Part shown: one piece after another, positions 1-63,651 of the stretch
Layout: every line of letters starts with the position of its first letter
Numbering within the stretch: the stretch's first letter is position 1
Source of the DNA: Gemmata palustris
Lineage (GTDB): Bacteria > Planctomycetota > Planctomycetia > Gemmatales > Gemmataceae
Reading direction: 5' to 3'
Length of the DNA: 64,000 nucleotides
Assembly: GCF_017939745.1 (NCBI RefSeq)
Contig: NZ_JAGKQQ010000001.1
Coordinates: 1,364,001 to 1,428,000 of the forward strand
Program-made: the position numbers and the translations under genes
The notes under the pieces: model-generated
Told to the model about the DNA's origin: nothing
Databases searched by the model: none
Seen by the model: only the letters and a program-made list of their open reading frames with translations

Positions 1-1257
1 ACCGAAGCCGGTGAGCCGAAGATCGCCGATTTCGGGCTGGCGAAAGTGGCTGACGTCGGGGCGAGCCTGACCGTGACCGGCGCGGTGATGGGTAGCCCCA
101 GTTACATGGCGCCCGAACAGGCGCGCGGGGACGGCAAGAGCGTCGACGCGGCCGCGGACGTGTACGCGCTCGGGGTGATCCTGTTCGAGTTACTCACCGG
201 GCGCGTTCCCTTTGTTGCCGAGACCACGGCCGCGCTCTTGCGCATGGTCGAGAGCGAAGAGGCTCCCGCGCCGAGGTCGTTTTCCCCCGCGGTGCCAAAA
301 GAGCTGGAGGCGGTCTGTCTGAAGTGTCTGGAAAAGGAGCCGAGTCACCGGTACCCAACCGCGCTCGCGCTCGCAGAAGACGTCGCCAACTTCCTCGCCG
401 GGAAGCCTATGGCTCACGTCAAAGTACCCGGTGCTTGGGCACGGTTCCGCCGGCGGTGTCGGCGCAAGCCGGTGCTCACGAAAATAGTGAGTTTTACCGG
501 CTTCTTCAGCCTCGTCGCGCTGGTCGCACTCGGAGTCACTCTACCGCCCCGCGATGATTCCCTCTGGCGCGTCCAGCGCTCCCACAAGCTGACCGTCGGC
601 ATCGATCCGAATTGTCCGCCTTACGCCTTCAAGAAAGACGGCCAGCTCACGGGGTTCGACGTGGAACTGGCGCGCGCGATCGCCGCCCGATTAGGGGTGG
701 AGGCGGAGCACCACGAGTTGTATTGGGATTGGGCCGGGATGAACCGCGAACTTAAGACCCGGCGCCTTGATGTTCTCCTTTCGGCCACGACCATCACCGA
801 GGAGCGGAAACAGCAGGTCGCGTTCATTGAGTACGCGCGCGACCCGCTCGTGTTCACCGCGCGCCCCGGAGCGCTCTTCGCAAGTCCGCGCGACTTGGTT
901 GGTAAGATCATCGCGGTGCAGGAGGGTACCACCGCGCAGGACACCGTCGAGCGCTTGCAGCGCGAGGGTTTGGGGAGCAAGGAGATCGTGCGCTATCGTA
1001 GTTCACCCGAACCGTTCGCCGCCGTTCAGTCCGGGACTGCCGACCTCGCCCTGGATCACCAGTTGATCGCCCGGTACGCGAGCCGGGAGCGCAAACTGGT
1101 GATCCAGGGCGAGGTCGGGTGTGCCCTCGACTCCGAACCGCTCGGGATCGCGCTCCGAACGGAGGCTCGCGCGCTCCGAAAAGCGATCGAGGACGCGCTC
1201 CGGGCCATGAAAGACGACGGCGAATTCGATCGGATTCGCGACCAGTGGGCGCGCTGA
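1..1257 (+). CDS. Ser/Thr protein kinase C-lobe fused to a solute-binding (SBP_bac_3) domain, 5' partial
   Basis: The reading frame is open from the first base, so the gene starts left of the window. The first residues contain the kinase DFG motif (IADFGLAKV), followed by the APE-type motif (MAPEQARG) and the DVYALGVILFELLTG helix, so only the second half of a eukaryotic-type kinase domain is present. A single hydrophobic segment (about 485-550: TGFFSLVALVALGVTL) follows. The last ~230 residues match the family 3 periplasmic amino-acid-binding fold (KLTVGIDPNCPPYAF, GFDVELARAIAARLG, LDVLLSATTITEERKQQV). I infer a membrane kinase whose extracytoplasmic sensor is a captured ligand-binding domain, so ligand binding outside could set kinase activity inside. 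Polar amino acids or similar small molecules are the usual ligands of this fold; the actual ligand is unknown. The downstream gene is convergent. Confidence 0.88.
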   Translation, partial: TEAGEPKIADFGLAKVADVGASLTVTGAVMGSPSYMAPEQARGDGKSVDAAADVYALGVILFELLTGRVPFVAETTAALLRMVESEEAPAPRSFSPAVPKELEAVCLKCLEKEPSHRYPTALALAEDVANFLAGKPMAHVKVPGAWARFRRRCRRKPVLTKIVSFTGFFSLVALVALGVTLPPRDDSLWRVQRSHKLTVGIDPNCPPYAFKKDGQLTGFDVELARAIAARLGVEAEHHELYWDWAGMNRELKTRRLDVLLSATTITEERKQQVAFIEYARDPLVFTARPGALFASPRDLVGKIIAVQEGTTAQDTVERLQREGLGSKEIVRYRSSPEPFAAVQSGTADLALDHQLIARYASRERKLVIQGEVGCALDSEPLGIALRTEARALRKAIEDALRAMKDDGEFDRIRDQWAR

Positions 1258-1273
1258 CCGATCACGTCGCGAA

Positions 1274-4200
1274 TCACTTCTTCTGCTTGTCGAACCACTC
1301 CTTTGCTTTCTTGTGTGCCGCAACGCGATCGGCGTCGCGCAGGAACCCAACCGAGTACGGGCCGAATCGATCTTCGGGATTCATGCGCTTCCCGGCGTCC
1401 GGGCCGTGGGGCCAGCGCCAGTAGAAGCCGAAGTCGTCCGGGTCTTGGCCGAGTAGGTGCAGCCGCATCGCGGTGGCCACGTCGCGCAACTGGGTCGTGG
1501 TGTCCTGCCCCTCGACTGGTGTCCGGTAGATGCGGAAGACCGGTTCGCCCGGTTTCGTCGGCGGATCGTGGAGGAAGACACCGGACTGGGCACCGTTTGC
1601 CGCGTGTGCCTCCAGCAACGGGAGATCGTCCTTCGTGCCGAGTTTGCCAACAGCGAGAATTGCAAGCCCGACATTCCGCGCCGTGTTTCCCGGGTACGGG
1701 TCGTCCTTGACTTTCGCTCGAACGGTCTCGCGCGCGGCGGGGAGCACCTCTTCGATACCAAAATCGAGCGCGAGTTGGAGGCCATGCGCGCGGCCGGTGT
1801 AATCGACCCGCGCCGCAGTCCATTTACCGACGAGTTGACGAATCGCGGGCGCAACAGTTTTGTCCTTGAGTGCGGCCGCAATCGCATCATTTGAGTGCTT
1901 CCCACCGGGCAGGAAGTCGAGGCTGTGGGACGTGTGGAACGCCCCTTCCGTGCCGGGGAAGGTACCCAAATACATCCATCCCACCACGTCCGCGAGCGGC
2001 GCGGCAACGAGCTGGAACGATCCGACCCCGATCGGGATGCGCGCGGCCTTGTTCAGTTCGGCCCAGCGGTCGTGGTAGAGTTTGCCGGCCGTGCTCGGGT
2101 CCGCGGCAACGGCGTCGAGCAACGCGACGTTGTGGGGTAGGCTCCGAATGCGCTCGAAGAGGGCACGACTCGGCTTGTCGTCGCCGATCACCTTTGCGAA
2201 CCGCTTCCAGTGTGTCGCGTCGAACTCGGCGCGGAACAGTTGGTCGAGCAACTCGCGGCACCGCTTTGTGATCTCCGCGTTCCCGGACTTCAGCCCAATT
2301 TCGAGAGCGGCACGGGCTTTCGATCCGAGTTCCTTCAGCTGTTTCTGCGCCGCCTCCCGCTCGGCGAAATCCTCGCTGCCGAGTTGCTCGACGAACTTCA
2401 TGTGCGCCGGGTCCGGTTTCACTACGTCCTTCTGCTTATCGAGGAACGCTCGCGCCTTCGTGTGGGCCGCGGTGCGAGCTTCTTCGTTGGAAAAGCCGAA
2501 CGGCTCCCCGAAGTAGACCGCGACGACCGGGCGGCCGTTCTCGCGCGCGAAACGGTTCTGTGCGTAGGGGAACCCGAACTCGAACGGGTCTTGATCGCAC
2601 AGTAAGAGCGCGAGACCGATGGCGTGGTCGCTGACCTGCATGCGGCGCGAGCGCGGGCCGAGTCCGACCGACGGCGAAGGGGGAACGACGAGAGCCGTTG
2701 GGTCGTCGTAGAGCGGGGTGAATAGCGGTAGGTCCGCGATATTGCCGAACTGGGCGACGGCGTGCAGGGCGGCGCACCGGGAATCCGGTCCGCGGCCCTT
2801 GTCGGCCGCGATGGTTCGAGCCGCGGATAACACGTCTGCTATGCGCCACTTCACGGCCAGCTCGAACGCACAGTAGATGACGGCCGGTTCGGTCCGGTGG
2901 GTGAGCCACGATGCGAGCAATTTTCCAAAAACGCGATTCATTCCCGGCGCTGCATCAACCGCATCGGGGCGAAACTTGGGGCTCTGTTCGAGTATCTTAC
3001 CCTGGAGCCCGAGTTCCAATCCGCGTGCGAAGTGGACGCGCCCCTCGCCGTGCAAGAGCAGTTCAGCCTCTTCACCGGCACATTTGGACCGCGCCTTTTC
3101 GGTGCCGGGGTAACTGCCGAGGAGCATCAGGTACGCGGTCTCTTCGCCACGGTCGCACGGCCACACCGAGATCTCGAAGAACACGCGCAGGTTGCCCAGG
3201 AAATGCCGGCCAACGTGAACCATTGCCTCACGGTATTGTTGCTCCGCTGATTCGGGACCGGCTTCCGCGGTGTCGAGCCGGTGCAGCCAGTCCGCGTGCT
3301 TAACGATCAGTGCGAACAAATCGCGGCTCGCACGGGTGTTCCCGGTGATGGCCCGGTAGCGCTTCCAGATGGGGTGGCTCGGTTCGTCGTCGGCTTTAGT
3401 AGGGTCAAAGGTTTTTACCAGATCATCGAGCGCGGTCTTCCGGGCCACAGTCAGGATCGCTGCGGCGCGTGTGCGCACTTCGGGGTTTTCGGACTTCAGA
3501 CCGGCTTTCAGCGCGGGTTCGGCTCTCGAGCCGAGTTTGCGCAGTTCTTTGTCCGCGGTCTCGCGCTCGTTGAAGTCTTCGCTGCCGAGTTGTTTTACCA
3601 GCGGGGCGGCCGGGTCTTCGGCGAGACGCGGAGCGGGTGCGAGGGGCTTCGCGTCCGAAGGGGAGCCGGGCGAAGTCGTCATCGCGTATCCGCCACACAC
3701 GACAGTAGCGACCAGTGCGGCGGTGAGCGCAACGGCCCTCAGTTGGTCGAATAGCATTCCCTTGAGCACCGTGGACGCGGCCGCGTTCGCCACGCCCCCC
3801 GCGGCCCCGCGCACGGCGGCCGTCGTCGTTCGGAGCAACCCGGCGGACACCGCGACGGACGGGAGCAGTGCGCTCAGCGCGACGGCGGACGTTACACCCC
3901 GCGCCGATAGACGCTCCGCGAGTTTCCGTTTCGCGGCGGCGAGCCGACTGGAGAGGGTACCTTCGGCGATGCCCAGCTCGAGCGCGGCCTGCTTGCGGGA
4001 CAGCCCACGCAGTTCACACATCACAACGGCTTCACGCAGGAAATCGGGGAGTTTCGCCAGTTCCTCGTCAATGATGGCGGCTTGCTCCGTGACGACGAGT
4101 GCGTCCGGGGTTGTGGGGGCGCTGGCTCTGGTTCCCGGAGCCGTGAGTAGGTGTTTCCGCCGATCGCGCATGATGCGTACTCCCCGGGCGGTTCGCACGG

Positions 4201-4477
4201 CCACGCTGTAGAGCCACCCCGCCACGTTCGACCCACGAACCGCGCCCGCTTTGCGCGCGAGTACCAGGAACACGGCTTGGAAGGCGTCTTCCGCGTCGTG
4301 CGCGTCGGACAGAATGCGGCGACACACCGCGAGCACCATCGGCCCGTGCCGCCGGACCAGTTCGGCGAACGCATCGTCGGTGCGCGCGCTGATGAACGTG
4401 CGGAGGAGTTGAGTGTCCGTGGTTCTGGACGCGGGCGGTGCGGCAAAGCGCACGAGCGCGACGGCGGAGCGGGGCAT
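1274..4477 (-). CDS. ECF sigma-70 factor with transmembrane segment and long HEAT-like C-terminal extension
   Basis: The 1067-residue protein starts at ATG 4477 with a GGAGGG ribosome site about 8 bases upstream. Residues ~20-200 are an ECF sigma factor: region 2 (AFAELVRRHGPMVLAVCRRIL..AEDAFQAVFLVLARKA) and region 4 with its helix-turn-helix (LSRKQAALELGIAEGTLSSRL). A hydrophobic stretch (AVALTAALVATVVCGGYAM) follows, and then ~800 residues. These contain two copies of a HEAT-like unit, VKQLGSEDFNERETADKEL and VEQLGSEDFAEREAAQKQL, each heading a separate ~350-residue block. Usual ECF factors are under 250 residues, so the extension is most of this gene. Such fused ECF factors are known from planctomycetes, where the extension is thought to replace a separate anti-sigma factor. 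I infer a membrane-tethered, self-regulated sigma factor; the signal is unknown. Confidence 0.88.
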   Translation of the reverse strand: MPRSAVALVRFAAPPASRTTDTQLLRTFISARTDDAFAELVRRHGPMVLAVCRRILSDAHDAEDAFQAVFLVLARKAGAVRGSNVAGWLYSVAVRTARGVRIMRDRRKHLLTAPGTRASAPTTPDALVVTEQAAIIDEELAKLPDFLREAVVMCELRGLSRKQAALELGIAEGTLSSRLAAAKRKLAERLSARGVTSAVALSALLPSVAVSAGLLRTTTAAVRGAAGGVANAAASTVLKGMLFDQLRAVALTAALVATVVCGGYAMTTSPGSPSDAKPLAPAPRLAEDPAAPLVKQLGSEDFNERETADKELRKLGSRAEPALKAGLKSENPEVRTRAAAILTVARKTALDDLVKTFDPTKADDEPSHPIWKRYRAITGNTRASRDLFALIVKHADWLHRLDTAEAGPESAEQQYREAMVHVGRHFLGNLRVFFEISVWPCDRGEETAYLMLLGSYPGTEKARSKCAGEEAELLLHGEGRVHFARGLELGLQGKILEQSPKFRPDAVDAAPGMNRVFGKLLASWLTHRTEPAVIYCAFELAVKWRIADVLSAARTIAADKGRGPDSRCAALHAVAQFGNIADLPLFTPLYDDPTALVVPPSPSVGLGPRSRRMQVSDHAIGLALLLCDQDPFEFGFPYAQNRFARENGRPVVAVYFGEPFGFSNEEARTAAHTKARAFLDKQKDVVKPDPAHMKFVEQLGSEDFAEREAAQKQLKELGSKARAALEIGLKSGNAEITKRCRELLDQLFRAEFDATHWKRFAKVIGDDKPSRALFERIRSLPHNVALLDAVAADPSTAGKLYHDRWAELNKAARIPIGVGSFQLVAAPLADVVGWMYLGTFPGTEGAFHTSHSLDFLPGGKHSNDAIAAALKDKTVAPAIRQLVGKWTAARVDYTGRAHGLQLALDFGIEEVLPAARETVRAKVKDDPYPGNTARNVGLAILAVGKLGTKDDLPLLEAHAANGAQSGVFLHDPPTKPGEPVFRIYRTPVEGQDTTTQLRDVATAMRLHLLGQDPDDFGFYWRWPHGPDAGKRMNPEDRFGPYSVGFLRDADRVAAHKKAKEWFDKQKK

Positions 4478-28114: not shown

Positions 28115-29543
28115 TCATGCCGCCGGCGCGAGCGTAGTCAGTAGCAGTTCGCGGATGGGGTCAGGTAGTTTCTGAAGGGCCGTGCCGTCCCCGGCCTGTG
28201 GCAAAACGGCTTCGGCCCACAGCCACCGGCGGACGGCGCACAGGGCGTCGGAGAACGTGACCGTCGCCTTGCCCGGCCACGCGCCCGCTCCCGTTCGCTT
28301 CGCCGCCGGCAGCGCGTGGAACAGGAGCGCAACCACGGTGTACAGCCCGAACAGGCACGGGCCGGCACGCAGGACGGTGTTCTTGCACCACCCGCGCGTG
28401 GTCTCCAGCCCGAGAGCGGACCGGGCTTCCTGAAACGTAGTTTCAATATTCCACCGACCGCAGTAATGGCCGATGACGGCCGAAGGGGTCAGCTCCGGAG
28501 CGGTGGTGAAGAAGTACTCGTCGCGGTGCGTGCCGCTCACGTCCCGGACGAACACCCAGCGCAATGGGACCAGCCCCTCACCGGCCTTGTACCAATGCCC
28601 GGTGCCGTCGAGGGTCTCGACGCGCCGCTTCCCGCCCCCGTACCACCCGACCTCTGATCGGGCGAAGGCCGTGGCCGCGACAACGGCCTCTCGGGGCTGA
28701 GTGACTGTCCCATATGTGCGAAAAAGCCTGAGAAATCGTGGGTGACAACTCGAAAATACGGCGATTTCGAGGCATATGGGACAGTCACTTAGGGCGACGC
28801 TTGCCCTTAACCCGTGGCCGCCCCTTGCCCGTGTACGGCGGGGGCGGGTCGAACAGGTTGGCGTCCGGGTGCAGTTTGCTGACCAGCGTCAGCCGGGCAC
28901 GGTGGCGGTAACAGAATCGCGCCACTTCATGGGTGCCGTACCCCGAATCCCCAGTGAATACGAAGGCCCGATCCGGGAACCGGATGAGGAGCACGCGCAA
29001 CAGCCCGCACATGATCCGCGCCGGGGTCCGGTGCCGCCTGTTACGGGCGCGGTCGTCTTGGGCCGAGCGATACAGGTCGATGAGTATCGGCAGAGCCCAC
29101 GGGCGCGTCGCGAACGGGAACTTGACGAGGATGGCGAGCACGACCCACTTGTGCCCGTACCGAAATGCGGTGTAGCTGTGGGTCGAGCGCACGGCGTCTC
29201 GGTGCCGGGCCTTGCCGTACACGTTCGGCCCCTTGTGCCCATCGACGGTGTCGTCGCCAACCAGGCACACCGGCCCGTCGGGAACGAGGTGGTCGAGCAC
29301 CAACCGCATCAGGGCGCACCCGAGTTCGAGCCCGGACCACGGGGCCCGGGAGAGCACCCGCCGGTAGTCGGTGGGATGCCCCGGAGCCAGGTGCCGAAGC
29401 GCGCGCAACAGGTTCGCCACCGTCCGCCGCCCGGTCGTCACAAGTGCCCCGACCAGGAGTGTGGAGAACCGTTGGTACGTGGGGCTGGTGAAGTGCAACC
29501 CGAGAACCTGCACCAGGTCGTGTGCCTCAGGTGGTAGAATCAT
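28115..29543 (-). pseudogene. DDE_5-type transposase split by MITE copy 1
   Basis: The N-terminal part (29543 to ~28789) starts MILPPEAHDLVQVLGLHF and carries the first two catalytic blocks: CLVGDDTVDGHKGPNVYGKARH and FVFTGDSGYGTHEVARF. An 88-base MITE then interrupts. The C-terminal part resumes at about 28697 (PREAVVAATAFARSEVGWYGGGKRRVETLDG) and ends with the Glu block (GHYCGRWNIETTFQEARSALGLETTRGWC) and LLLTTLAPAA at 28115. Removing the MITE and one target triplet restores one frame of about 445 codons (KRRP-x-PREA). The copy is inactive as it stands. Confidence 0.78.
28701..28788 (+). repeat. 88-bp MITE, copy 1
   Basis: The 88-base unit begins GTGACTGTCCCATATG and ends CATATGGGACAGTCAC. 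It is inserted in the DDE_5-type transposase gene. Left flank TGA and right flank TTA do not match, unlike most other copies. Confidence 0.85.
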
Positions 29544-29637
29544 GGCGGCCGTCCGTGGGCGAGGACCACGGGAGCGTCAGCAACTCCATGATACTTCACC
29601 ACGGACGGCCACTGAGAATCGGCACCAGTCGAGTTTA

Positions 29638-29725
29638 GTGACTGTCCCATATGTGCGAAAAAGCCTGAGAAATCGTGGGTGACAACTCGAAAATACGGCG
29701 ATTTCGAGGCATATGGGACAGTCAC
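29638..29725 (+). repeat. 88-bp MITE, copy 2
   Basis: It has the same sequence and orientation as copy 1. The flanks are TTA on both sides (29635-29637 and 29726-29728). The right TTA is shared with the left flank of the adjacent IS5-family element. Confidence 0.85.
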
Positions 29726-29802
29726 TTAGTGACTGTCCCATAAGGGGCAGTTGGGGTGGGTAAAATGGTTCATGAGAACCCAATCCTACCCGAGCGATGT
29801 AA

Positions 29803-29890
29803 GTGACTGTCCCATATGCCTCGAAATCGCCGTATTTTCGAGTTGTCACCCACGATTTCTCAGGCTTTTTCGCACATATGGGACAGTCAC
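29803..29890 (-). repeat. 88-bp MITE, copy 3 (reverse orientation)
   Basis: Inverted relative to copies 1, 2 and 4. It has a perfect TAA duplication on both sides (29800-29802 and 29891-29893). Its position inside the IS5 element changes the start of the transposase. Confidence 0.87.
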
Positions 29891-30687
29891 TAAGCGACGA
29901 GCAGTGGAGGTTAATCGAGCCTCACATCCCGGTCTATCCGGGCGGTCGGCCCCGCACGACCGACCTGCGGGATGTCGTCGATGCCGTGTTCTACATCTTG
30001 CGCACCGGGTGCCAGTGGCGCTACTTGCCCAAGGACTTCCCGCCCAAGTCCACGGTCTGGCGGTACTTCGACGAGTGGCGTCACAACGGTACCCTCGACA
30101 CCATACACGACCTGCTCCGCAAGAAGGTCCGCACCCAGGAGAAGCCGTACGCGCCGCGCACCACGGCGAGCGTCGATAGCCAGTCGGTGGACACGACCTC
30201 CGGCGGCGAGCAGCGGGGCCGGGACAACGCCAAGAACGTCGACGGGCGGAAGCGCCACATCGTCGTGGATTCCTTGGGGTTGCTGCTGGCCGTGCTGGTG
30301 ACCGCCGCGAGCGTGGACGATGCCCAAGCCGCGCAGGAACTGTTCCCCCGCTTGGAGGGACAGCCGGTCGGCAAGGTGGTGCGGATGTACGCGGACAGCA
30401 AGTACCACAACTTCGCCCTCTACGCGTGGGTCGAGGACAACGCCCGGTGGGATCTGGTCATCGTGCGCCGCCCGGAGGGGTCGAAGGGGTGGGTGAAGCT
30501 GCCGATCCGGTGGACCGTGGAGCGCACGTTCGCGTGGCTGGGCACGTGCCGGCGGCTCACCAAGGACCGGGAGGAAAGCGTGATGTCAGCGGAGGCGTTC
30601 ATCAAACTGGCCATGATCCACCTCATGCTCAACCGACTCGAACCCAAATATGCCGACCCCGAATTCCAATATCACAAAGCCGCGTGA
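29803..30687 (+). CDS. IS5-family transposase with a MITE-derived N-terminus
   Basis: The frame starts with GTG at the first base of MITE copy 3, which supplies about 30 residues (MTVPYASKSP... to MGQSL). The conserved transposase then begins with SDEQWRLIEPHIPVYPGGRPRTTDLRDVVDAVFYILRTGCQWRYLP. The catalytic residues are present: VDSQSVDTTSGGEQRGRDNAKNVDGRKRH, MYADSKYHNFALY and the Glu in RWTVERTFAWLGTCRRLTKDRE. The original start was probably ATG 29772 (MRTQSYPSDV, then SDEQW); after the 91-base insertion that start is out of frame. The catalytic domain is therefore intact, but only the MITE-borne start reads into it. Whether it is translated is unknown. Confidence 0.82.
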   Translation: MTVPYASKSPYFRVVTHDFSGFFAHMGQSLSDEQWRLIEPHIPVYPGGRPRTTDLRDVVDAVFYILRTGCQWRYLPKDFPPKSTVWRYFDEWRHNGTLDTIHDLLRKKVRTQEKPYAPRTTASVDSQSVDTTSGGEQRGRDNAKNVDGRKRHIVVDSLGLLLAVLVTAASVDDAQAAQELFPRLEGQPVGKVVRMYADSKYHNFALYAWVEDNARWDLVIVRRPEGSKGWVKLPIRWTVERTFAWLGTCRRLTKDREESVMSAEAFIKLAMIHLMLNRLEPKYADPEFQYHKAA

Positions 30688-58423: not shown

Positions 58424-58552
58424 GGGGCGAGAAAATCGGGGCGCGGGCGAGTGGAAGGACGCCCCCAGGTCATCCGCGGGGGTGTTCCGCATAGCACCGG
58501 CTCGGTCAACAGCAGACGAAATCAACCGTAATCTGCGCGCGACAAGGGCTTA

Positions 58553-58640
58553 GTGACTGTCCCATATGTGCGAAAAAGCCTGAGAAATCGTGGGTGACAA
58601 CTCGAAAATACGGCGATTTCGAGGCATATGGGACAGTCAC
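58553..58640 (+). repeat. 88-bp MITE, copy 4
   Basis: It has the same orientation as copies 1 and 2. Left flank TTA (58550-58552) and right flank TGA (58641-58643) differ, the mirror image of copy 1 (TGA left, TTA right). Confidence 0.85.
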
Positions 58641-58726
58641 TGAGAAGGGAAAGCGCGATTAGCGTCGAAAAGGGAAACACCGTAGCACAGCCCCGCGAGC
58701 GACCCGTTGGTCGGCGGGGGTGGAGG

Positions 58727-61073: not shown

Positions 61074-63651
61074 CCATGGGGTCGTGATCCAATTCACCGG
61101 GGGTTCAGTGACTGTCCCATATGCCTCGAAATCGCCGTATTTTCGAGTTGTCACCCACGATTTCTCAGGCTTTTTCGCACATATGGGACAGTCACTCAGT
61201 CCCAGATGGACGTGTCCGGGCTCGCCATCGACCAGCTCGAACTGCTCGGGAACGATAACCGAGTGGAAATCGCCTCCAATACCGTGCTTCGGCTCAACGG
61301 CGGGGTGCTGACCGAGAACGTGATCAGTAGCGGCACGGGGAACATGCTGGTCAACCAGGACCTGTCGATCGACTCCACGAGTCAGCTCGACCTGACGGGC
61401 AAGCGCCCCGGTGCTCCGGGTGGACGGCGGCGCGCCGAGCTGACGGTCCGGGCGTACATCACGGGCACCGTCGGGCTCACGAAGACCGGCGGCGGGCCTG
61501 GACCTCCATAATAAGGTCATCTCGTACAGCTTCTCCGGGCCGGTCCAGCTCCTCGACGGGACCACGTACCTGGGGCGCAGAACTCGAACTCGATCGGCGG
61601 GTACGTGTACGGCACCACCGTGCGCGACAGCCTGACCGTCGGCGCCCGGCGCCCGTGTGGTGGTCCAGGGGATGAACCAGTTCGGAGAAGGCCCCGGTGT
61701 GCCCGCGTACAACGGGCGCACGCTGCGGCAGGGGACCGCTACCGTGGCGCTGGGTGCGGGGCCACACTCGAGCTGGGTACCCAGCTCGTCGCCGTCAAGT
61801 CCCTGGCCGGGGACGCGGGGAGCGTCGTGGTGCTGGGGGCGTGTCCGACTTCTACGTCGGGGCCCGTATGATCCGGCAACGGACACCGAGTTCGCCGGGT
61901 CGCTCACCGGGACCGGGCAGGTGCTCTACGCGAACCTGGGCACCTGGACGCTCTCCGGTGTGAGCACGTTCGATGGGTCCGTTTACGTCAACGCGGGCGC
62001 GCTCCGGGCCGGCGCCGCCGGGGCCTTATCGCCCAACGCACAAGTGTTCCTGTTCGATACGACCCTGGACCTGAACGACTTCGACCAGACCGTGCGGGGC
62101 GTGGCCGACGAGCGCGCCCCGGGCCCCTCACGAGCACCGCGCAGGTGCGCCTCGGTGCGGCACGGCTGACCATTAACTCGATCCTCCCCGAGGCCTCCAT
62201 CAGCGGGGTGATTAGCGGGACCGGCGGGCTGACGCTGTCCGGCCCCGGGCGCCTGGGCCTGGTCGGTGCGAACACGTACACCGGGGAGACGGTGGTGCGG
62301 GACGGGGCGGTACTGAACGTCAACGGGACCACGTTCACCGACATCGTCCTCGACAACTCGATCTTCCAGGGGCGCGGCTCGGCAGGGAACATCGGGTCCA
62401 ACGGGGACGGTGAGCTCAGTCCCGGCAACAGTCCCGGGCGGCTGAGCATCGGGACACTGACCATGGGGCCGACCGACACGCTGACGATCGAGCTCTCGGG
62501 AACGGTCCCGGGCACCGAGTACGATCAGGTCGCGACCCGCGGGGCGGTGACACTCGCGGGGTGCGGCTGAACCTGCGGGTCGGATTCGCGCCCGCGCCCG
62601 CGCCCGGTTCACCATCGTGCAGAACGGCTCCGGGGCTCCGGTTTCTGGGGCGTTCGCCGGATTGCCCGAGGGGCCGTGTTTACGGTCGACGGGGTCACGC
62701 TCCAGATCACCTACCGGGGTGGTTCAGGCCGCGACGTGGTGCTCACGGTTCCGGGTGGCGCGGCCCCGGCACCCCAGGCGCCGCGCCGAATTCCCGAGTG
62801 CTGGTGCCTTCCCGGGCGGTTCGGGTACGGCCCGTGTGTTCGATCCGGAGACCGGCGCGGTCGGTCCGCGAGTTCGCACCGTTCGCGGGTTATTCGGGCG
62901 CGTGGCCCTGGTTACGGCCGACGTCACCGGGGACGGGATCGCGGACACGGTGGCGGCGACCGCCGGGGCGGGCGGGCACGTGAAAGTGTTCGACGGGGCG
63001 ACTGGTGCCAAGTTGATGAGCTTCCGGCCGTTCGCGGGGTTCTCCGGCGGTCTGAGTGTGGCCGCCGCGGACCTCGACGGGGACGGGCGCGCGGACCTGG
63101 TGGTCGGGGCCGGTGCGGGCGCATCGGGCGGGCACGTGAAGGTGTTCAGCGGGGCCGACGGGTCGCTGCTCCGGGCTGCACTGGCATTCGAGGGATTCAG
63201 CGGCGGCGTCCGCGTGGGGACCGGGGACGTGAACGGTGACGGGCGCGCGGACCTGATTGTGGGGGCCGCGACCGGGAGCAGCCACGTCAAGGTGCTCGAC
63301 GGGCTCGACGGGGCGGTGCTCCAGAGTTTCTTCACGTTCGAGGGGTTCGGGGCGGCGTGTTCGTGGGCGGTGCGGATCTCGACGGGGACGGGGCGCGGAG
63401 CTGATTGTAGGAGCAGGTGCGGGCGCGGCGGGCGGGCACGTCAAGGTGTTTGATGGGGCCGGCGGGTCGGTGCCCGGAGCTTCTTCGCGTTCGACCGCGG
63501 GTTTGTGGGTGGTGTCCAGGTCGGGGGCGTGGATCTCGACGGGGACGGGCAGAGCGACATCGTGGCCGTTTCGGTGTCGGAGCCGGCCCACGTCGAGGTG
63601 TTCCGGGCCACCGATTTGGCCCTCGTTCGGAGCACCCGGCCGTTCGGATGA
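61074..63651 (+). pseudogene. Autotransporter-associated/FG-GAP surface protein, 5'-truncated and frameshifted
   Basis: The coding segments form one secreted protein. Beta-strand repeats of the autotransporter-associated type come first (VEIASNTVLRLNGGVLTENVISSGTGNML, LYANLGTWTLSGVSTFDGSVYVNAGALRAG, LTLSGPGRLGLVGANTYTGETVVRDGAVLNVNG). A beta-rich end follows (LSPGNSPGRLSIGTLTMGPTDTLTIELSGT). Several FG-GAP/VCBS repeats close it, each with a calcium-loop-like DxDGDGxxD (VTADVTGDGIADTVAATAGAGGHVKVFDGATG, AADLDGDGRADLVVGAGAGASGGHVKVFSG). At least eight single-base shifts interrupt it. The start is missing (IS21 copy 2), a MITE sits near the 5' end, and the natural stop is at 63649-63651. Role: surface or adhesion, inferred. 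Confidence 0.7.
61108..61195 (-). repeat. 88-bp MITE, copy 5 (reverse orientation)
   Basis: Perfect TCA duplication on both sides (61105-61107 and 61196-61198). It is inserted in the 5' part of the broken surface-protein gene. Confidence 0.87.

Follow-up and report, generated by a model that had tools for sequence, protein, structure and literature searches.

A predicted single-pass Ser/Thr kinase with a C-terminal solute-binding domain, encoded beside an ECF sigma-factor gene in Gemmata palustris

Introduction

Family-3 solute-binding domains are usually parts of ABC transporters, and they are also common in histidine kinases, among which we presume BvgS and the protein of PDB entry 3h7m to be examples. 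Such histidine kinases share the sensor family with the protein described here, but they belong to another kinase superfamily and use other phosphotransfer chemistry. A Ser/Thr kinase joined in one chain to a Glu/Gln-type solute-binding domain has been described in Streptomyces coelicolor (gi|21223285; Krupa and Srinivasan 2005, PMC1262709). This protein comes from another phylum and is compared here by description only, and the accessible part of that paper (PMC1262709) mentions no ECF partner. In Actinobacteria, a polar-amino-acid-binding protein has likewise been proposed to control a Ser/Thr kinase, in the GlnH-GlnX-PknG system (PMC6069109), but through three separate proteins (a solute-binding lipoprotein, the membrane protein GlnX and soluble PknG without a transmembrane helix), whereas the Gemmata protein is one chain with a transmembrane helix. 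The accessible text on this system mentions no sigma factor (PMC6069109). It reports that Ser164, Arg169 and Asp250 of mycobacterial GlnH contact the amine and carboxyl groups of the ligand and that these residues are conserved across specificities (PMC6069109).

Hanks-type kinase genes located beside ECF sigma-factor genes, as in Gemmata, are represented by PknT-EcfP and PknS-EcfK of group ECF43 (PMC8999054, PMC13147305), and kinase-ECF pairing is therefore already known. PknS carries periplasmic TPRs (PMC13147305). Sigma factors of ECF43, which are activated by kinase phosphorylation, have no acidic motif in sigma-2.2 (PMC8999054), in contrast to the Gemmata sigma factor. Other kinase-linked groups keep a DAED-like motif, as is seen in non-ECF43 groups, and may work differently; four of them with planctomycete example members (ECF59, ECF61, ECF62 and ECF217) have been proposed to be phosphorylation-regulated (PMC8999054). 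The Gemmata sigma factor is compared with these groups at the level of its Pfam Sigma70_ECF match, which is present in four of four orthologs. PMC13147305 cites a survey for a wide variety of sensor domains in ECF43-linked kinases, and a flytrap sensor in a kinase-ECF pair is not described in the accessible parts of PMC8999054 or PMC13147305. Gemmataceae proteomes contain 98 to 140 Ser/Thr kinases (PMC11032199), and the stimuli of bacterial protein kinases are considered an outstanding question (PMC6069109). The kinase plus solute-binding-domain architecture reported below is thus rare but not new, having been described in other bacteria; its lineage, the overlapping ECF sigma-factor gene and an unusual pocket are what is distinctive here.

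Results

The window, that is, the whole stretch of 64,000 nucleotides that was analyzed (G000:C1:1364001-1428000), lies in the 9.2-Mb genome of G. palustris (G000). Its positions 1-1257 (+ strand) are the 3' part of a 669-residue gene (G000:C1:1363248-1365257; L009:9248-11257), whose GTG start is located 753 bases before the window. The features of the gene are as follows, in window coordinates unless stated otherwise.

G000:C1:1363248-1364000 (before the window), + strand: first 251 residues, comprising the N-terminal extension, the kinase N-lobe and HRDLKPGN (translation)
1..363, + strand: C-terminal part of the Ser/Thr kinase domain, residues 252-372 (Pfam; DFG, APE)
439..474, + strand: Arg/Lys-rich juxtamembrane stretch, predicted cytoplasmic (translation ARFRRRCRRKPV)
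484..540, + strand: predicted transmembrane helix, residues about 413-431 (Kyte-Doolittle 2.15)
589..1248, + strand: SBP_bac_3 domain, residues 448-667, predicted periplasmic (Pfam E 9e-30; PDB relatives to E 6.1e-30)
613..615, + strand: Cys456, which replaces the pocket Tyr14/Phe13 of ArgT/HisJ and GlnH (MAFFT alignment)
790..807, + strand: Thr515 to Arg520, including the equivalents of ArgT Ser72 and Arg77 (alignment)
1054..1059, + strand: Asp603-His604, at the place of ArgT Asp161, in two registers (MAFFT versus profile HMM)
1255..1257, + strand: stop codon TGA (sequence)

A Pfam scan of the whole protein placed Pkinase at residues 121-372 (E 3.7e-51, above the curated cut-off) and SBP_bac_3 (PF00497) at residues 448-667 (103.6 bits against a gathering cut-off of 26.4). 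The Hanks-type motifs read in the translation were intact, including GRGGMG (Gly loop), VALK (Lys), HRDLKPGN, DFG and APE. Hydropathy yielded a single transmembrane window at residues about 413-431, the highest in the protein; the other three of the four most hydrophobic 19-residue windows were located inside the kinase domain (two) and inside the binding domain (one, 0.91). The sequence RRRCRRKP precedes this helix, and the basic flank of a transmembrane helix lies on the cytoplasmic side according to the positive-inside rule, so the kinase would be inside the cell and the binding domain in the periplasm. In the PDB, the sequences closest to the binding domain were those of amino-acid-binding proteins (AncQR 4zv1, 6svf and 4prs), and entry 3h7m, named 'Sensor protein', was also related to it. 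PASTA repeats were absent from the whole-protein Pfam scan, indicating that the protein is not a PASTA kinase (PknB/Stk1), and the window-encoded part scored 138.8 bits with NCBIfam PknB_PASTA_kin against a cut-off of 450. The protein is thus, as predicted from its sequence, a Hanks-type Ser/Thr kinase with one predicted transmembrane helix and a C-terminal family-3 solute-binding (Venus-flytrap) domain. The initial annotation had proposed this one-chain order from the window, and the Pfam scan of the full gene confirmed it, with no differing architecture.

To place the gene among its relatives, 59 genomes (the own genome and relatives) were searched. The full-length matches among those listed were G000 itself, G008 (83%), G010 (82%) and G009 (59-60%), and the same layout was observed in the three genus-mates. 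Three other genomes share this layout at identities of 83, 82 and 60%, which rules out a chance fusion or a frameshift product. The four orthologs retained the kinase motifs with minor variation, for example, GRGAMG and VAIK. Two loci of a named-genome scan were the orthologs G010 and G009, and Gemmata sp. IIL30 contributed one record with an ortholog. The binding domain was 88-90% identical to those of the two closer orthologs (G008 and G010). Pairwise dN/dS against G008 and G010 was 0.12 and 0.17 for the binding domain, 0.09 and 0.09 for the kinase, and 0.32 and 0.30 for the N-terminal extension, respectively. As judged from these sequence ratios, purifying selection acts on the binding domain relative to the two closer orthologs, and the domain is not debris. 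Values against G009 are rough, many synonymous sites having changed; they were 0.27 (binding domain) and 0.11 (kinase) from G000, and 0.21 and 0.16 from G008, pointing to faster change in the binding domain than in the kinase at this distance.

A perfect 25-base inverted repeat (window 1040-1064 and 1094-1118) was also noticed within the kinase coding sequence. It is absent from the three orthologs, in which the longest perfect inverted repeat of the same 160 bases was 5-8 bases. About 18 bases differ there as a block with the length unchanged, encoding VIQGEVG instead of the VVVDTAG of G008 and G010, and a template-switch (quasipalindrome) mutation may have produced the difference.

The pocket was compared with the fetched sequences of E. 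coli GlnH, HisJ and ArgT by using MAFFT. The ligand-contact positions, with numbering and roles that we assume for these three proteins, were Arg77 (carboxylate), Ser72 and Asp161 (ammonium), Tyr14/Phe13, Asp11 and the aromatic residue at 52. A further comparison set comprised 43 solute-binding fragments from 43 loci (30 from the family and 13 from the phylum), of which five were kinase fusions and 38 were others, some nearly identical. R520 is the equivalent of Arg77 and T515 that of Ser72, and Arg and Ser/Thr were kept in all five fusions; Asp11 is kept as D453 and the aromatic residue at 52 as W495. Asp453, Trp495, Thr515, Arg520 and Gly-Thr-Thr 560-562 were invariant across the four orthologs. 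Position 14 was occupied by Cys456 in all four orthologs and by Tyr in the more distant fusion of G095, described below. Among the 38 other fragments, none had Cys at this position; the missing aromatic residue is nevertheless not unusual by itself, as far as the alignment goes, because 15 of the 38 had a gap, nine had Gly and two had Ser.

The column of Asp161 was read in two ways. MAFFT placed His604 there in all four orthologs, with an Asp one residue before. A profile HMM of non-ortholog sequences placed Asp603 in the column for G000, G008 and G010 through a one-residue deletion with middling confidence, and His without a gap for G009. The column contained Asp in 36 of the 38 non-fusion fragments and Glu in one, and the remaining fragment did not reach it; Asp was also found in the three E. 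coli proteins and in the G095 fusion. AlphaFold2, run on the binding domain with a three-row alignment, gave a model of low quality (mean pLDDT 55.6), which was not used. From these residues, the ligand is likely to be a carboxylate and could possibly be a standard amino acid. The initial label 'amino-acid-binding' is accordingly only partly supported by the sequence: R520 and Thr515 are kept, but Cys replaces Tyr14/Phe13 in all four orthologs and the Asp column holds His or is shifted by one. The ligand residues are thus lacking only in part: position 14 differs, the reading of the Asp161 column depends on the alignment, and the Arg and Ser/Thr are present.

An ECF sigma-factor gene (201 aa, L009:8646-9251) is located directly upstream of the kinase gene, outside the window. 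The two genes overlap by four bases (GTGA) in G000, by four in G008 and G010, and by eight in G009. Adjacency of the kinase gene to an ECF gene, as in ECF43 pairs, was thus found in all four orthologs, here with an overlap. Each of the four upstream sigma genes gave a Pfam Sigma70_ECF match, and the sigma-2.2 position has the sequence ADEEDAALSAFD in every one of the four proteins, with the acidic DEED motif kept. The replacement by STTA or QTTA that marks ECF43 was absent from all four translations. Judged by this motif, the partner sigma factor falls outside ECF43; because the acidic motif is kept, it probably works by a switch other than the charge-supplying type of that group (EcfP, EcfK). 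The 'one-component' description given earlier held in that the sensor and kinase share one chain, but it was incomplete, since this sigma-factor gene overlaps the kinase gene beyond the window.

On the other side of the sigma gene, upstream of it and divergent from it, a Lipid_desat (PF10520) gene was located before the window (L009 7265-8011, - strand). A fatty-acid hydroxylase gene occupies the corresponding place in G008; similar frames were readable in the G008 and G010 loci, and no lipid-desaturase-like frame was seen among the frames listed for the G009 locus. The other neighbors read in G009 differ as well, and the sigma overlap is kept. Downstream, the window contains a gene on the - strand (1274-4477) whose 1067-aa product has both sigma-70 regions 2 and 4 and also matches a HEAT repeat. 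This gene is convergent with the kinase gene, with 16 bases between the two stop codons, and a similar frame adjoins the orthologs in G008 and G010. A location of the kinase gene within an ABC transporter operon was rejected, because inspection by eye of the surrounding frames that reach 200 aa or more revealed no transporter gene.

To determine how widespread the fusion is, the binding-domain profile was run at E 1e-20 over 95 genomes of the family. It matched in five, namely four of the 19 genomes in the genus, counting G. palustris itself, and G095, which belongs to a different genus. The G095 protein (655 aa from the first possible start) is a more distant fusion of Pkinase and SBP_bac_3 in one chain. 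Any SBP_bac_3 match was found in 88 of the 95 genomes, and the one other family-3 protein of the family that was scanned (L050) was an SBP-permease. A kinase domain in the same frame as SBP_bac_3 was detected in the five known fusions only, over 30 SBP_bac_3 loci and all 18 other listed places with frames of at least 600 aa. Two shallow searches covered phylum samples of 392 genomes, with at most seven candidates scored per genome for the solute-binding profile and three for the whole-protein profile. The former yielded 13 loci besides the own one, none with a kinase in the same frame; for the latter, among the matches listed, the binding domain was covered only by the window's own match. Of 2155 matching plasmid records, none had a place covering 80% of the query. 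The initial annotation had called a binding-protein sensor 'rarer' than the usual extensions of such kinases; the five of 95 family genomes agree with this, but a Streptomyces coelicolor protein of this architecture was already on record in 2005 (PMC1262709).

A tree of 45 binding domains united the five fusions in a single clade (99/97), separate from the remaining SBP_bac_3 domains of the family. This agrees with the view that the domain was 'captured', as it had been called, but long branches were flagged in the tree. A tree of 54 kinase domains separated the kinase of G095 from those of the other four fusions; two changes were needed, and 0% of 200 bootstrap trees had one. A single kinase clade was not rejected by the AU test (p 0.069). 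In direct searches, four G000 paralogs outscored the G000 fusion against the G095 kinase, and six G095 paralogs outscored the G095 fusion against the G000 kinase. These sequence comparisons lead us to lean toward one sensor module on two kinase backbones, which is not proven. According to PMC11032199, kinases of similar architecture may have evolved more than once in the phylum.

At the G095 locus (L077, G095:C266:1-6000), an Asparaginase_2 gene (E 1e-97) is located about 100 bases downstream of the fusion on the same strand, which hints at a link to Asn/Asp metabolism in one genome and on a short contig. Pfam scans of four neighboring frames on this contig detected no sigma gene beside the fusion. 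Beyond the Asparaginase_2 gene, a frame matched the Mu transposase C-terminal domain (PF22483, E 6.5e-22), possibly a sign of mobility. Other arrangements of the domain were encountered in the searches. Four other Gemmataceae have frames of 774-915 aa in which SBP matches occur three times in tandem (L129, L131, L133 and L134, of G090, G066, G021 and G068, respectively), and the kinase profile detected no kinase domain in them. In L086 (G152:C143), a frame with a kinase domain lies right before an SBP_bac_3 gene on the same strand; the two are separate frames and represent neighbors, not a fusion.

Elsewhere in the window, five short elements with inverted arms around AGTGACTGTCCCATATG were observed, at 28697-28792, 29635-29728, 29800-29893, 58549-58644 and 61095-61208, each holding one pair of the 17-mer. 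The exact 17-mer occurs in the genome 26 times forward and 27 times in reverse (the reversed control had 0 matches). All but one of these copies are paired, giving 26 pairs whose starts lie 73 bases apart (74 in one pair). The pattern resembles that of a small palindromic or MITE-like element dispersed in the genome. A 94-base inverted repeat with 100% complementarity (29635-29728 and 29800-29893, 71 bases between the arms) has one copy of this element as each arm.

Discussion

We consider it fairly probable, reading from the sequences, that the protein is a single-pass periplasmic small-carboxylate receptor Ser/Thr kinase with control over the sigma factor encoded beside it. In this model, the flytrap would close in the periplasm on a small carboxylate, either an amino acid or a related compound; closure would alter kinase dimerization or autophosphorylation across the membrane; the kinase would phosphorylate or otherwise control the co-translated sigma factor, and the sigma factor would switch on a nutrient-response regulon. 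The control of the sigma factor is the least certain of these steps. Precedents for such a route are found in PknT-EcfP and PknS-EcfK (PMC8999054, PMC13147305), in the other kinase-linked ECF groups that include planctomycete members (PMC8999054) and in amino-acid sensing by GlnH-GlnX-PknG (PMC6069109). Against it stand the different residue at position 14, the two-way register at Asp161, the faster evolution of the binding domain relative to G009, a sigma factor that is not ECF43, and the lack of a sigma gene among the frames scanned at G095.

The strongest alternative, which shares the receptor part of this explanation and is not exclusive of it, is that the receptor kinase does sense an amino acid or a similar ligand but acts mainly on other proteins, with the sigma overlap reflecting co-expression only. 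We regard this as a plausible reading with less than an even chance. The sigma factor keeps DEED and so may need no phosphorylation, following reasoning in the accessible part of PMC8999054, and the G095 fusion has the Asparaginase_2 gene downstream with no sigma gene found beside it. However, the sigma overlap is kept in all four orthologs down to 60% identity, although the other neighbors read in G009 differ.

It is unlikely, in our estimate, that the binding domain does not bind a free ligand and instead serves as a docking or dimerization module, for example, one that senses the cell wall or whether a partner protein is loaded or empty. Such a role would fit the Cys at position 14 and the ambiguous Asp161 column in all four orthologs, as well as the faster evolution of the binding domain than of the kinase in the G009 comparisons. 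It is harder to reconcile with the invariance of Asp453, Trp495, Thr515, Arg520 and Gly-Thr-Thr 560-562 and with the purifying selection seen against the two closer orthologs; moreover, position 14 is non-aromatic in many SBP_bac_3 domains (the Gly and Ser fragments above). A binding domain that belongs to a transport system, with the kinase regulating uptake, is very improbable: family-3 domains are usually transporter parts and L050 is an SBP-permease, but the domain is tethered to the kinase, and neither a permease nor an ABC ATPase was recognized by eye among the surrounding frames of at least 200 aa.

Returning to the receptor kinase with its partner sigma factor, a bolder form of this reading is speculative, and we would give it limited credence. 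It describes a one-operon route from nutrient to transcription, in which a flytrap kinase with an odd pocket would sense a carboxylate other than a plain amino acid and directly control a DEED-keeping ECF sigma factor by an undescribed switch, since the sigma factor keeps the acidic motif, and in which the sensor module would have moved onto at least two planctomycete kinase backbones.

A solute-binding sensor with a recognizable pocket and an overlapping, likely output gene makes both the ligand and the target of this kinase testable by a few ordinary assays. The conserved sigma-factor partner, more than the fusion itself, is what makes the locus worth bench work.
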